64,000 nucleotides of DNA from an uncultured Spirochaetaceae bacterium (GTDB lineage: Bacteria > Spirochaetota > Spirochaetia > Sphaerochaetales > Sphaerochaetaceae): the NCBI GenBank assembly GCA_944390015.1, contig CALXOL010000012.1:1-64000 (forward strand), read 5' to 3'. Position 1 is the first letter of the stretch; each line of letters begins with the position of its first letter. Of the stretch, positions 26,199 to 32,586 are shown piece after piece. The translations under genes and the position numbers were made by a program. The notes under the pieces are model-generated. The model was given only the letters and a program-made list of their open reading frames with translations, had not been told where the DNA came from and ran no database searches.

Positions 26199-27917
26199 TT
26201 ACCATGCAGTAATCATGTGGCTCACATCGCCCAGATATCCGATATCGTTCGTCTTGGCGTTTGACAGCGCCATGATAGATGTGATCACCCCGTCTATCCT
26301 CGACTCCGTCCGCTGCTTGGGTTTTACGATTTTCACATTGCCGCTTGAATCCTGGTATGTCTCCGCACAGCTCATCATCCAGTCAATCACCTCGTTACAA
26401 TTGGCCGATACCTTCCCTTCAAGATAGGCTTTCTCAAAATCCCTGATAGTTGGACTCATCGTCTTCATCCCCTGGCTGAACTCATATGCGACATCGATGA
26501 ACCAGGGAGGCATGATGTTCACGAGCTCGTTAATCTTCCACTTGTCCGCAGCTATAAAACAGATTTCATATTTTTCGTAGCACTCATTCAGGTAATCCAT
26601 TACATAGTTGTAATCGATGGTGTTTCCGGGAGTGGCCGTAACCCAGCCCTTTTCAATCCATTCCCTCAGAGGAATCCGGCACTGTCTGAGAAGTGTTTCC
26701 ACCATCGCATCAGGAATCCAGAAGTGGGAGATCTGCATGTGCCTTCCGTCTTCGAGAGGGAAATCAAGCGTGAACGCCGTAAAATCAGAGACGGAGGATA
26801 AATCCAGACCACCATAGGCTGGTTTGCCTATGAGATCATCCTCATCCACCGTCCACCTACATCTTTCCATCCATACAGGCATGTTGGCCCAGCGACTGAG
26901 GCTGTGGCACCACATGTTCAGGTTCTTGGTCTTGAACTCAAGCATCTCCGTAGCACTGGCCTTGCAACTGTCGTAGTTTGCCCTGAAGTCATCCGGATCT
27001 ATCGAGACACCCCAATTGGGATTCGCCTTAGGCCAGATGGAAGGATCATCCGGAGAATCGAACTCATCCACCTCATAAATCGATATGAAATACCGGGGAA
27101 TGTCGAGCTCACCGGAAAGAACCCTCTTGCACTTCTTGTACTCCTCATGGCAGACACCTCCGAGGGAGACACCTGCTGTCGTAATCCTGATCAGAAGCGA
27201 CTGCTGGTCGGAGATGTTTCCGAAGCGGATTGAATTTATGAGCCCGTTATCCCTGTGCTGATGATATTCATCAATTACGGTGCCGTATGCAAGCTTGCCA
27301 TCCTTCGGTTCTCCAGCAATAGCAGTAATAACACCATCACGCCATTTAAGCACCTTGTTGTTTTTTGAATTGGCCACACACACATCCTTGTTTACAAGGC
27401 TCAGCTCCTTCTCACACCTGACGAATACCTCTTCAGCTTGCTCAAGAGTTGTTGCTCCTATGTAGCCTCTCACCCCAGGCGTTTCACCAAAGATGAGGTA
27501 ATCAAGAAGGGCTGCGGAAAAGGTGCTCTTTCCGTTCTTCCTGGCAATCTCCCAGAAAGCATCAACAAAACGTCTTCTCCCATGATCGTCCTTCTTTACC
27601 CAGCCGAAGAGCACTATCGTATCGTATGCCTGCCATGCCTCAAGCTTCATAGGCTGGCCTCTCTTCCTGCCAAGAGGAATGCATAGGTTCATGGTGATCC
27701 AAAGGAGAGGCTTAAGCCCCTCCTCCAAAATGAACTCATACCCTGCTACTCCTTGCTTGATATCCCTCTCCTGCCGCTCCACCTTCTGGCGCTCAGCTTT
27801 GGAACATACACGGGTTCCCCATAATACGCTGTCCCGATAACCGACATATGCATCCCTGTAATATTTCAGGATTCTGTTCCGAAGAGTGCTAGAACTCGAA
27901 TGACCTTGAGATTTCAT
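26199..27917 (-). CDS. terminase large subunit
   Basis: A 572-aa ATPase/nuclease that packages DNA into proheads. The Walker A-like site is FWEIARKNGKSTFSAALLDY (about residue 131), and Walker B lies at KLAYGTVIDEYHQH (about residue 207). The coupling region SLLIRITTAGVS follows. The nuclease domain has acidic residues at YGGLDLSSVSDFTAFTLDF and IAADKW. The order TerS-TerL-portal is standard. The first residues overlap the end of the TerS gene. Confidence 0.93.
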   Translation of the reverse strand: MKSQGHSSSSTLRNRILKYYRDAYVGYRDSVLWGTRVCSKAERQKVERQERDIKQGVAGYEFILEEGLKPLLWITMNLCIPLGRKRGQPMKLEAWQAYDTIVLFGWVKKDDHGRRRFVDAFWEIARKNGKSTFSAALLDYLIFGETPGVRGYIGATTLEQAEEVFVRCEKELSLVNKDVCVANSKNNKVLKWRDGVITAIAGEPKDGKLAYGTVIDEYHQHRDNGLINSIRFGNISDQQSLLIRITTAGVSLGGVCHEEYKKCKRVLSGELDIPRYFISIYEVDEFDSPDDPSIWPKANPNWGVSIDPDDFRANYDSCKASATEMLEFKTKNLNMWCHSLSRWANMPVWMERCRWTVDEDDLIGKPAYGGLDLSSVSDFTAFTLDFPLEDGRHMQISHFWIPDAMVETLLRQCRIPLREWIEKGWVTATPGNTIDYNYVMDYLNECYEKYEICFIAADKWKINELVNIMPPWFIDVAYEFSQGMKTMSPTIRDFEKAYLEGKVSANCNEVIDWMMSCAETYQDSSGNVKIVKPKQRTESRIDGVITSIMALSNAKTNDIGYLGDVSHMITAW

Positions 27918-28203
27918 CTTCCCTTCCTCCCTCCTCCGGTTCCGTCTCTTCTACTTCATCTTTCACTGTTTTCTTTTTGAATTTCTCCATCAGCTTCTCA
28001 TAGGCCGAGATATAGGTCTTCTTATCTGCAAGCTTATCGGCTGAGAGGAATCGGCCGTAATAGTCGCATGCGGCCCAGATGAGGGGATAATCTATCTCCT
28101 CGAAGTTTTTCTCTTTCAGAATTCTCGGAGCAAGCCACTCGAAATGCGTTCTCGCCTCAGCGCTCATCCATGCCGGAGCATCAGGAATTTTCTTTCTTGT
28201 CAT
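27889..28203 (-). CDS. terminase small subunit (P27-like)
   Basis: A 104-aa protein. The start KIPDAPAWMSAEARTHFEWL matches P27-family small subunits ('..PpPp.wLs..a...w.....~l...g.l'), followed by a helical pair (DYPLIWAACDYYGRFLSADK) and a charged acidic tail (EETEPEEGGREDEISRSFEF). It should recognise the packaging start site. It overlaps both neighbours, with HNH directly upstream. Confidence 0.75.
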   Translation of the reverse strand: MTRKKIPDAPAWMSAEARTHFEWLAPRILKEKNFEEIDYPLIWAACDYYGRFLSADKLADKKTYISAYEKLMEKFKKKTVKDEVEETEPEEGGREDEISRSFEF

Positions 28204-29601: not shown

Positions 29602-30118
29602 TGCTAGCCCCCTTTTCCTCATCATCGAACAGATCTGGCTGCTCCACTCCGTTCTTGTTCTTCCTTGCGTAGAGATAGGCTTCATTCAGGACGTTCTCGA
29701 TGTCCGCAATCTCCTCATCATCCAGGATGCCGTTATAGTCCTTCTCGTTGATATCATGCTCGACCCAGAAGTGCTCATCCGGAACCAGAAGAAAACAGGA
29801 GGATATGTTCATCCTGCTCTGTGCACCGGGGCAGTAGAGGGAACCTTTTAGGACATACCCCGAATACTCCTTCGCATCCTTCCTGATTGCCTCTGTAATG
29901 GTTATCCTGGTATCCATTTCATCCAGCTCCATGTGATAGCTCATTATCGGGACGAGCTTCTTTAAAGCCTTCTTGAAATCCTCATGTGGATTCCTCCTGC
30001 TCTTGATCGTCTCGGTCTCACCCTTCTCATTGAGAAGTTCGACCACGACATTTGAACCGTCGTACTTCGCTCTCATGATTTTCACGTTTTCATTTTCCTT
30101 CTTCTTGCCCATATTCAT
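29594..30118 (-). CDS. phage protein of unknown function
   Basis: A 174-aa charged protein with a beta region near residues 15-40 (DGSNVVVELLNEKGETETIK) and an acidic C-terminal third (DDEEIADIENVLNEAYLYAR). It sits in the replication-to-packaging transition between VRR-NUC and small hypothetical genes. No family is recognised, but coupling to both neighbours by overlap supports a real gene. Confidence 0.55.
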   Translation of the reverse strand: MNMGKKKENENVKIMRAKYDGSNVVVELLNEKGETETIKSRRNPHEDFKKALKKLVPIMSYHMELDEMDTRITITEAIRKDAKEYSGYVLKGSLYCPGAQSRMNISSCFLLVPDEHFWVEHDINEKDYNGILDDEEIADIENVLNEAYLYARKNKNGVEQPDLFDDEEKGASNG

Positions 30119-30483
30119 TTCCTCCTATGCCACTCGATGAGTGTTTCAACTTCCTCCACGGAATGAGCCAGATCATAAGCCACTCCGTATGTCCTGCATT
30201 TCATCTCGAAGACCTTCTGCTCAGGGGACTGAGTTCCTCCCGGCTTCTTCATCTCAAGATATCCGATTCCATCCGGCCACCAGACAACCAGGTCGGCCAC
30301 GCCTTTTCTTAAGCCAAGTGCGATAAGCTGCGTGGTGCGTATCATATCCGTACCTGCGCCCTCGTTTGGAACGCTGTGGCAGAATATCCCGTTCTTCTGC
30401 AGAAGCTGCACCACCTCAGCCTGTATCACCGCCTCCGCAGGTCTTGGCACCATCTTGGCACCTCGATGTTTTTTCCTATCCAT
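30115..30483 (-). CDS. VRR-NUC domain nuclease
   Basis: A 122-aa PD-(D/E)XK-superfamily nuclease. The family core is visible: EAVIQAEVVQLLQKNGIFCH, then GVADLVVWWPDGIGYLEMKK (Asp plus E-x-K), then SPEQKVFEMKCRTYGVAYDL. VRR-NUC enzymes in phages are thought to resolve branched DNA before packaging. The gene follows the primase-helicase across a repeat-rich gap. Confidence 0.88.
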   Translation of the reverse strand: MDRKKHRGAKMVPRPAEAVIQAEVVQLLQKNGIFCHSVPNEGAGTDMIRTTQLIALGLRKGVADLVVWWPDGIGYLEMKKPGGTQSPEQKVFEMKCRTYGVAYDLAHSVEEVETLIEWHRRK

Positions 30484-30640
30484 GAACCCTCCTTACACGG
30501 TTCCAACTCATCCCCATGCTCCCTGGTGCCAATGGTGCCACACTCCATAGAGTGTGTGGCACATCCGTTGGCACCATTTGGGGAGATTGCATCACTGGTG
30601 CCAAAATGTTTTTGGCACCACGTTGGCACCATTGGCACCA
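30444..30640. repeat. cluster of TTGGCACCA / TGGTGCCA repeats
   Basis: About nine copies of TTGGCACCA, or its inverse TGGTGCCA, lie in 200 bp, overlapping the start of the VRR-NUC gene and the last codons of the primase gene. One pair forms an 11-bp inverted repeat at 30596..30620; another hairpin spans 30535..30562. This is iteron-like spacing beside replication genes, so a phage replication origin is possible. Confidence 0.65.
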
Positions 30641-32586
30641 CCCTGTTTTTCCATGCCTGAAAGCGTCAGCAGACAGCATGAAACCGAGACCTCGTCAACC
30701 ATCAGAATCTGCTCTTCAACCATCTGGATCACACCTGCGGAAAGCATCTTCCTGAGGAACCTTGAGCCGTAGTCGTTGGCGAAAACCTTCTTGATCTTGT
30801 TGCGGCTCCATGCCAGGACATCCCTCATGTAGTTCCTCAAATCCGAGCTTGACAATGCAGGGTAACCGAGCATCATCTTGTGCTCGCTCCTCAGCCATGC
30901 ATCGGAAATGATCATCATCTCTTCCGTGATATCAACCTGCTTGCCTTCCTCGCCCACAGGCTCTATGATTGCGGATCTGACCTCTTCACCGTCCTCATCA
31001 AGCCAGCCGTTGATTACCGCGCCCTTCAGATGAACCTCAACAGGTTCCTGAAGCTCCGCATCCTTCTGCTTGGTCTGAGTCAAGGTGAGATAGCCCTTCT
31101 CGTTGGTCACACAGATAGCAACATCCGCAGCGGCGTTGAGCGCACTTGACCCTCTTGCCCTCATGTCGGCTTCCTTGGATACTCCCGTATGGTGGATAAG
31201 CAGAATTGCGCACTTGTACTTATTCTGGAGCTCCATGAGCGATTCGAGGAAACCGCTGATTTCTTCTGCGGAGTTCTCGTCTCCGGAGAAAAAGCGGTTG
31301 AGAGTGTCGATTGCGATGATGTCCGGCTGCATGCCGGAAAGGTCTATCTGCTCTGCGACGAATGCCAGATCCGAGGCTTCGTTGAGTCTCTTAGGACCTT
31401 TCGAGATCTTGAACGTACCAACTGATGAGAGGCCGTGCTCCTGTGCCCATAATGCTACCCTTCCCCTCAGCCCTGCGAATCCCTCTCCGCAGAGATAGAG
31501 GCAGTTGGCATTCCTGGCTTTCATCCCCATCCAGCTTCCACGGCCGGTAGACATGCTCAGCAGCATGTCCAGGACAACGAACGTTTTTCCGGAATTCGAT
31601 GCGCCGAAAACCATTGCAAGCCCTTCACGAGGAATCCATCCCTTTATCAGCCAGCGCAGAGGGGATGGTGTTTTCAGAAGCTCGTCTCCATCCTCGATCC
31701 ATGAGGATGTCTGAGGCATAAGAAGGTTCTTTAGAGCCTCAAGACCATGCTCAGCAGCATAGTCGTTGGCATCCATTCCCGCATCGGGAATGAGCTTGTA
31801 TGGAAGTCCGGTCCTCTCAGCGTAGGATTTCCCCGGATTGCTTCCATCCTCCTTCAGGTCGTTGTCGGCCACGACGGTGAGTTCAAGCATGGATTTCAGC
31901 TCATCAGCCACATCCTTCATGTTGTTCCCATCGAAAGCAACGATTACCGGTGTTCCCGTGGCCTCATAGATTGACGCTCCCGTGGCATAGCCCTCGCAGA
32001 GGTAGGCCTTATCCTCCAAGGTGCCTATAACACAGAATCCGCCCTTCTTACGGGCTCCGGGAAGGAACCATTTGCGTTTCTCAGGATCTGCGAAGATCTT
32101 CTGAATTGACCTGATCTCTCCATCAGATCCGTAGACGGGGACTATGCATGCATCCCCCGTCTCGGTGATATGGAGAAGACCGTCATGGTTCCTCACACTT
32201 TTTCTTTCCAGATAGCTGAAGCCGTCAGGACATACGGCGGAGTTCAGATAAATCTCCTTGGCCTTTTCAGCTCCTTTCCTCCATTCATCCTCCTGGATTT
32301 TCTTCCTTTCAGCGTCAGCACGCCTAATCGCCTCCCAGTCGGTTGATGTGTAATCGGACTTATTCTTGCTCGACCATCTGAACTCGGTTCCTGTCTGCCA
32401 GCAGCCTCCTATGGCTATCTGGAGGTTCCCATCGTTGTAGTGGTATACGTACCATCCGGCCTTGTCTCCGCGCTTTTTAACATCGAACCTGTGGAGCCTG
32501 TCGTCCATCACGGGATTGACGGACACCCCCAGAAGACGCTGGATGAAGGTTTGGAATGATTCAGCCGAGAAGTTTTCTTCTTGCAT
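30592..32586 (-). CDS. phage primase-helicase (TOPRIM + RecA-like)
   Basis: ATG 32586 follows GGAGGTG at normal distance, giving 664 aa. The N-terminal region has a D-rich TOPRIM-like unit: KAYLCEGYATGASIYEATG, PVIVAFDGNNM and LTVVADNDLKEDG. The C-terminal half is a RepA/AAA_25-type ATPase with Walker A GASNSGKTFVVLDMLL and Walker B PDIIAIDTLNRF, followed by CAILLIHHTG. It should prime and unwind phage DNA. The final 15 codons run through the TGGTGCC repeats, giving a Gly/Ala/Asn tail. Confidence 0.85.
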   Translation of the reverse strand: MQEENFSAESFQTFIQRLLGVSVNPVMDDRLHRFDVKKRGDKAGWYVYHYNDGNLQIAIGGCWQTGTEFRWSSKNKSDYTSTDWEAIRRADAERKKIQEDEWRKGAEKAKEIYLNSAVCPDGFSYLERKSVRNHDGLLHITETGDACIVPVYGSDGEIRSIQKIFADPEKRKWFLPGARKKGGFCVIGTLEDKAYLCEGYATGASIYEATGTPVIVAFDGNNMKDVADELKSMLELTVVADNDLKEDGSNPGKSYAERTGLPYKLIPDAGMDANDYAAEHGLEALKNLLMPQTSSWIEDGDELLKTPSPLRWLIKGWIPREGLAMVFGASNSGKTFVVLDMLLSMSTGRGSWMGMKARNANCLYLCGEGFAGLRGRVALWAQEHGLSSVGTFKISKGPKRLNEASDLAFVAEQIDLSGMQPDIIAIDTLNRFFSGDENSAEEISGFLESLMELQNKYKCAILLIHHTGVSKEADMRARGSSALNAAADVAICVTNEKGYLTLTQTKQKDAELQEPVEVHLKGAVINGWLDEDGEEVRSAIIEPVGEEGKQVDITEEMMIISDAWLRSEHKMMLGYPALSSSDLRNYMRDVLAWSRNKIKKVFANDYGSRFLRKMLSAGVIQMVEEQILMVDEVSVSCCLLTLSGMEKQGGANGANVVPKTFWHQ

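Follow-up and report, generated by a model that had tools for sequence, protein, structure and literature searches.

The window, a stretch of 64,000 nucleotides from an uncultured Spirochaetaceae bacterium, is part of a 2.19-Mb genome (G000:C12). Prophage early genes were found on its minus strand, encoding in order a Sak4-like annealing protein, a DUF7173 protein, a DUF669/SSB-like protein, a Cas4-like exonuclease, a DEAD helicase, a primase-helicase with Toprim_3 and AAA_25 domains, and a VRR_NUC nuclease (Pfam, PHROGs). Two ORFs at 27889-28203 and 26199-27917, which we take from their sequence to be a TerS-like gene and a TerL gene, respectively, make up a presumed terminase module 2-4 kb from the repeats described below. 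The nearest relative of the window was a primase locus with 94% identity (L001) in an uncultured Spirochaetaceae assembly, and the genome carrying it (G036) was placed in the same genus.

An array of short repeats was observed where the primase-helicase gene meets the nuclease gene (Table 1). The first-pass annotation had described an iteron-like cluster of about nine copies in 200 bp, and the count was borne out: within 30444-30640, TTGGCACCA occurs in seven exact copies and in two with one mismatch. The cluster had been assigned to the end of the primase-helicase gene. The array does overlap this gene end; it also covers the beginning of the VRR-NUC gene, and the assignment is corrected to this extent. 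When the whole 64 kb was searched for TTGGCACCA with at most one mismatch, 20 matches were obtained against a shuffle mean of 11.0, and none of 100 shuffles reached 20. The 6-mer GTGCCA, present 10 times in 300 bp at the array, formed the densest 6-mer cluster of the window, the runner-up having 6 copies.

Table 1 Positions of the array and of the genes and domains around it in the window
Feature	Position	Strand	Basis
Primase-helicase gene, 666 aa	30592..32592	-	Pfam, PHROGs
VRR_NUC nuclease gene, 122 aa, next after primase; not constant in relatives	30115..30483	-	Pfam
Predicted winged-helix domain, residues about 556-632, proposed iteron reader	30697..30927	-	AlphaFold
Codon of residue 586 (Arg), column covarying best with iteron position 7	30835..30837	-	
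Iteron TTGGCACCA, inside primase 3' end	30632..30640	+	
Iteron TTGGCACCA	30623..30631	+	
Iteron TTGGCACCA, right arm of 11-bp hairpin	30612..30620	+	
Iteron TTGGCACCA, inverted, left arm of 11-bp hairpin	30596..30604	-	
Iteron TTGGCACCA, primase side of central hairpin	30568..30576	+	
Partial iteron TGGCAC, within central hairpin arm	30557..30562	+	
Central hairpin, flanked by inverted iterons; arms 30535-30543 and 30554-30562; apex CTATGG (- strand)	30535..30562		
One-mismatch iteron GTGGCACCA, other arm of central hairpin	30533..30541	-	
Iteron TTGGCACCA, inverted	30524..30532	-	
One-mismatch iteron TTGGCACCT, inside VRR-NUC start	30455..30463	+	
Iteron TTGGCACCA, inside VRR-NUC start	30444..30452	+	

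Followed along the primase, the array comprised three direct copies in the gene end, one inverted copy (11-bp hairpin), a 19-bp spacer, a direct copy, a 28-nt central hairpin with partial iteron copies in its arms, two inverted copies, a gap, and two direct copies in the VRR_NUC start. The 11-bp hairpin previously annotated in the last primase codons proved to be exact (30596-30606/30610-30620, with a 3-nt loop), and a perfect inverted pair of 17 nt was found at 30524-30540/30624-30640. Folding of the array as single-stranded DNA gave a z of -4.07, and none of 200 shuffles was equally stable. The primase tail GGANGANVVPKTFWHQ was encoded by the repeats, in agreement with the earlier remark that the repeats force this tail. 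When the window was compared with its 94% identical relative, the iterons differed at 1 of 88 bases, the stretches separating them at 9 of 109, and the adjacent coding sequence at 183 of 2281 (Fisher 0.025 and 0.013); the apex of the central hairpin was CTATAG in the relative. Neither an AT-rich opening region nor a GC-skew change at the array was found in the window; the 19-bp spacer (30577-30595) contained 10 A/T, and the G+C content of 30000-30999 was 0.516. A reading of the array as structured RNA was also considered and rejected, Rfam having given a chance match alone (E 0.86).

Subsequently, the primase-helicase protein was analyzed. Pfam assigned Toprim_3 to residues 196-283 and AAA_25 (RepA-like) to residues 303-472, and nothing else; a satellite-type Rep helicase was not recognized. 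The only sequence match in the PDB was RepA of RSF1010 (1g8y, E 1e-9). The model of the full protein had a pLDDT of 84.7, and AlphaFold prediction from 30595-30954 with 61 sequences yielded a C-terminal winged helix with a pLDDT of 82.1 and a pTM of 0.73. Comparison of the latter model with the PDB returned mostly winged-helix folds (forkhead, CRP, MarR, and PadR), with a best Z of 6.8 and no Foldseek E below 0.04; because these scores are modest, the fold class alone is claimed, and no family. A Toprim primase, a helicase, and a predicted C-terminal winged helix are accordingly combined in one protein, as in the P4 alpha type. The helicase of P4 is an SF3 helicase and belongs to another superfamily, whereas the helicase in the window is AAA_25/RepA-like. 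No RepC was annotated by Pfam among ten ORFs beside the primase.

We then collected relatives with an alignment of 13 primases, which gave 80 viral loci (best matches listed), and added phage records and whole-genome loci. A scan of viral contigs with a single primase protein gave no match, and a search at the DNA level gave short helicase matches alone. Scored were 87 non-duplicate loci with enough downstream DNA; L001 and L009 (near-copies of the window on one shared contig) and L013 (a near-copy of L012) were left out, and L014 and other incomplete loci were unscored. Since the loci are the best matches listed and not a random sample, the prevalence figures hold for this sample alone. Among these matches, the primase stop codon was surrounded by 5-13 copies of one 6-mer in 59 of the 87 loci, more than in any of 60 shuffles (shuffle maxima 4-7), and 7 of the 87 had a weaker repeat that exceeded 55-59 of the 60 shuffles. 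No repeated 6-mer was detected in the other 21 of the 87 loci among the matches listed. Three of these (L041, L060, and L108) showed on reading C/G-rich repeats that the low-complexity filter had hidden; the remaining 18 comprised 15 loci whose winged helix differs, L006, in which the C-terminus is shortened, and L040 and L074 (hairpin only). An array next to the putative initiator gene was thus found both in the window and in relatives. The persistence of the repeats in close relatives with the same primase, on which the earlier annotation had staked its proposal, was confirmed by the 94% identical prophage, which keeps the array with the single iteron change given above, and most of the 87 loci carry one.

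The repeated word differed from locus to locus. Relatives at 49-54% identity kept an array, L010 and L011 among them with a changed word (GCAAC and GCACC, respectively). The word was GGTGCC in the window, GGTTCA in phages XX1924 and PB15, GGTACA in 1N2-2, and GGGACA in CGphi29; GGGTCA, CGCAAC, CGTAAC, GGTAAC, CGTACC, and others were found in further relatives. When the words of 52 loci were aligned without reference to the protein, a common skeleton, xG[T/C]A[C/A]C, emerged with 5.62 bits against 2.2-2.5 in 8 nulls; the alignment contained 26 cores, of which two or three are incomplete. The words extend into the primase tails as well, giving GGANGAN in the window, QHEQH in L010, HHEHHTGT in L011, and QGANGAK in L012. 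Among the matches listed, 46 of 59 loci with a word and 9 of 28 without had, within 320 bp downstream of the stop codon, a hairpin that exceeded all 20 shuffles, and the best hairpin was bracketed by inverted copies of the word in 45 of 59 and 6 of 28, respectively. By reading and uncounted, many hairpin apices were CTTTAG, CTATAG, or CTTAAG on varying stems, and GGGGCAAA-like and GATGCGG-like boxes recurred beside the array.

The array followed the primase gene. The downstream gene varied among relatives, and the array after the primase stayed. In the isolated Alteromonas phages XX1924 and PB15 and in the isolated phage 1N2-2, the genes for VRR-NUC, the exonuclease, and the helicase belong to a divergent operon, and the array was still at the primase end, where it outranked in density every other 6-mer cluster of the complete genome (12, 13, and 11 copies, respectively). 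In Salicola phage CGphi29, the array was the second-densest cluster (6), behind an unrelated one of 8; AGCGAG was found eight times in 300 bp at L146:15384-15637, denser than the primase-end array. A GC-skew minimum was located near a divergent promoter in XX1924, PB15, and CGphi29; transcription therefore explains the skew, and we rejected GC skew as evidence for an origin. At L007:2254-4146, another N-terminus replaces Toprim, and the same AAA_25 and winged-helix end is followed by a GGGACA array; the C-terminal half and the array therefore travel together. Seven loci in related genomes (L021-L027) encoded a RepA-like AAA_25 protein that lacks Toprim and has about 370-410 aa, at 30-34% identity, several of them near contig ends or on small contigs.

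In the clade with a different winged helix, the primase end was without an array, and the records of L053, L048, and L046, three of the 15 loci named above, carried the same plan elsewhere. This relocated plan consisted of GTGCA words and a TGCACA...CTTAAG...TGTGCA hairpin, and in the record of L053 it lay before a TerS-like ORF. Among 8 records in or near this clade, the GTGCA-type pattern was matched in three, one of them (L040) having a lone distant pair, and was absent from five. No array was found in L102 (about 34.6 of 36.9 kb scanned) or L116 (all 23 kb), both also among the 15, or in the complete L006 genome. Two side observations were made in loci with an array-less primase end: at L149:4650-4930, in this clade, an array with a hairpin was relocated before a TerS-like gene, and at approximately L040:1000-1300, GCCAGA/GAGCCA occurred 22 times within 300 bp, some 4.3 kb ahead of the stop codon of the primase.

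Next, the words were compared with the protein. The shared-word test excluded L007, L020, and L069 and merged loci above 97% identity (57 to 49). When the rest of the protein was controlled for, sharing of a word correlated with similarity of the winged helix (partial r 0.28, 0/2000 permutations), whereas the reverse comparison gave -0.09. With graded word similarity, the corresponding values were 0.37 (0/2000 permutations) and -0.19. Columns 586 and 596 ranked first of 613 protein columns. In the training loci, residue 586 was Lys or Arg in 23 of 27 loci with C at word position 7 and in 1 of 22 others (A/T); conversely, 23 of 24 training loci with Lys/Arg had C. A tree built from the other domains supplied 14 independent pairs, of which 10 showed concordant changes between residue 586 and position 7, none an opposite change, and 4 no change, and in a sign-flip test over 1720 column-class tests 10 concordant changes were reached in 233 of 20000 runs (family-wise).

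Column 586 was chosen after looking, and held-out loci served as the check on unseen data, with the register and the rule fixed beforehand. Three new scans listed 200 candidates; subtraction of 19 incomplete loci and 85 duplicates left 96, of which 87 had a word in at least 5 copies. Among the matches listed, all 33 held-out loci with Lys/Arg at 586 had C at position 7, while the 53 loci without it divided into 37 with A/T and 16 with C, one further locus being unclassed; 16 of the 49 held-out C loci thus lacked Lys/Arg. The Fisher p was 5e-12 for all loci and 2e-4 for those below 80% identity to the training set. In the strictest set, 29 loci below 80% identity to the training loci and to each other, p was 0.025, Lys/Arg loci having C in 10 of 10 with 10 exceptions the other way. 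These results indicate that Lys/Arg implies C and that the reverse fails. Residue 586 sits in helix 582-591, which is not clearly the recognition helix, and a direct base contact is therefore something we infer. For word positions 3 and 5, columns in the N-terminal part scored as high as the winged helix, so that the specificity could not be traced to one region.

Because the array adjoins the winged-helix codons, linkage accounts for part of the correlation. Locus L093 looks like a cassette exchange of the winged-helix end and array between L081-like flanks: the last about 150 bp of its gene and the array (to about +146) resembled L090/L109 (0.91-1.00 versus 0.67-0.75), and its downstream DNA resembled L081/L085 (0.84-0.95 versus 0.08-0.32), as did the region from -450 to -250 (0.83-0.91 versus 0.71-0.83); further upstream, the sequence was mosaic and non-discriminating. 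The word is CGTAAC in L081 and CGCAAC in L093. Linkage might be the whole explanation, with recombination moving the primase end and the adjacent array as one tract, as in L093, and with no recognition between them; the graded signal was indeed weak for pairs below 60% identity (r 0.12, 74/2000). Nevertheless, this signal persisted in pairs below 70% identity (r 0.25, 0/2000), the concordant switches concentrated in the winged helix (13 of the top 15 of the 613 columns were residue 586 or fell within 592-635), and the residue-base rule held in unseen loci. We regard linkage alone as unlikely.

Functions apart from replication were weighed in the same manner. Inverted and direct sites at a gene junction would suit an operator array, at which a phage repressor or the primase binds the repeats and controls downstream transcription with no role in initiation. 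Small HTH genes immediately precede the primase gene in XX1924, PB15, and 1N2-2, and autoregulation by initiators is common. Against this, no HTH gene adjoins the primase in the ORF list of the window, the array is constant while the downstream gene varies, it occupies the primase gene end, where there is no shared promoter, and its word covaries with the primase winged helix; an operator seems to us distinctly improbable. The terminase module close by in the window and the relocated array just before the TerS-like gene in the record of L053 would fit a packaging site (pac/cos) or terminase-binding repeats, but the array lies about 5-6 kb from the terminase genes in XX1924 and PB15 and at the other end of the record in 1N2-2, and the word covaries with the primase, the protein with which it was compared, which makes packaging very hard to credit. 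Short repeated words with hairpins can also be mobile or centromere-like. A partition site, a recombination hotspot, or a selfish repeat with no replication function is nonetheless most improbable, as the position is tied to one gene family, copies within a locus share one word while words differ between loci, and the iteron bases are conserved against the 94% identical relative. On these grounds, none of the three (operator, packaging site, or partition site) was retained as the principal function of the array.

The earlier annotation had offered the repeats as a candidate replication origin or regulator binding site, and the present comparisons support this, with the origin favoured over an unrelated regulator site since the array tracks the primase, and not VRR-NUC or the terminase, and the word covaries with the winged helix. 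Judged from sequence comparison, the array is most likely the lytic replication origin of the prophage, an iteron-type origin situated right where the gene for its initiator ends (3') and read by the primase winged helix. This reading builds on the observed repeats, their position, the architecture in relatives, and the covariation between the word and a domain whose winged-helix fold is predicted. The C-terminal winged helix of the Toprim/AAA_25 primase-helicase would bind the short word (TTGGCACC here, read as xGYAMC), and several copies of the protein would load the RepA-like helicase as rings on the two iteron groups to either side of the central hairpin. Opening of the DNA at this hairpin may follow, and the Toprim domain would prime, perhaps at the hairpin apex. 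As word and winged helix change together, related phages would own private initiator-origin pairs, which would serve to keep replicons apart.

Several known systems resemble this arrangement. In the portions of PMC6092414 and PMC7581432 concerned, PICI/SaPI elements and Cch2 of SCCmec have an origin directly 3' of the initiator gene with two iteron groups read by the initiator C-terminal domain. The array in the window is likewise immediately 3' of the putative initiator gene and in two iteron groups; here, in contrast, a single protein of a full phage combines primase and helicase, the helicase is AAA_25/RepA-like and not of the satellite Rep type, and a conserved hairpin, with no AT-rich spacer in the window, separates the groups. 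The relevant section of PMC4234260 describes P4 alpha as a Toprim primase, a helicase, and a C-terminal winged helix that binds origin repeats, in one protein; the window protein has the same three parts, with repeat binding proposed. The same section reports iterons plus hairpins for priming in oriV of RSF1010 (IncQ). Iterons, hairpins, and a helicase domain homologous to RepA are shared with the window, but RSF1010 uses three proteins (RepA, RepB', and RepC, of which RepC reads the iterons), whereas one protein is proposed for all of these roles here. PMC4234260 also notes, for plasmid pRN1 and phage BIP-1, a stem-loop directly 3' of a primase-helicase with a C-terminal winged helix, needed for pRN1 replication; that account gives an archaeal-type primase and no iterons. 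As excerpted from PMC8263062, experiments on the Vibrio cholerae satellites PLE showed that the origin-binding domain of RepA covaries with the origin and that a cognate pair is needed. Domain-origin covariation was also found here, although PLE RepA is a RepA_N protein without helicase or primase and forms two groups, compared with the 26 aligned cores here. Winged-helix swaps in replication proteins of Gordonia phages are noted in part of PMC10684548.

In searches of the open PubMed Central literature, we found no description of word-changing iteron arrays after a Toprim/AAA_25 phage primase. An origin behind its initiator gene is a familiar arrangement; what sets the present case apart is the family of phages, the type of helicase, how many words there are, and the rule linking residue and base. 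To our knowledge, the origins of most temperate phages are unknown. Whether the loci form a large tailed-phage family with private, co-diversifying initiator-origin pairs is, in our estimate, evenly balanced; in such a family the winged helix would be a key and the word a lock, exchanged as cassettes, sometimes relocated, and with the key partly readable from sequence. By analogy with PLE satellites, private pairs may keep co-resident phages independent or let them escape origin-directed attack. If these proposals are true, dozens of natural word-domain pairs would be at hand for testing how the DNA specificity of an initiator changes, and simple portable replicons would become available for poorly known hosts. 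The origin of any phage with a Toprim/AAA_25 primase would be findable at the 3' end of the primase gene, and the satellite-type plan of an origin after the initiator gene would extend to full phages with a RepA-type helicase.
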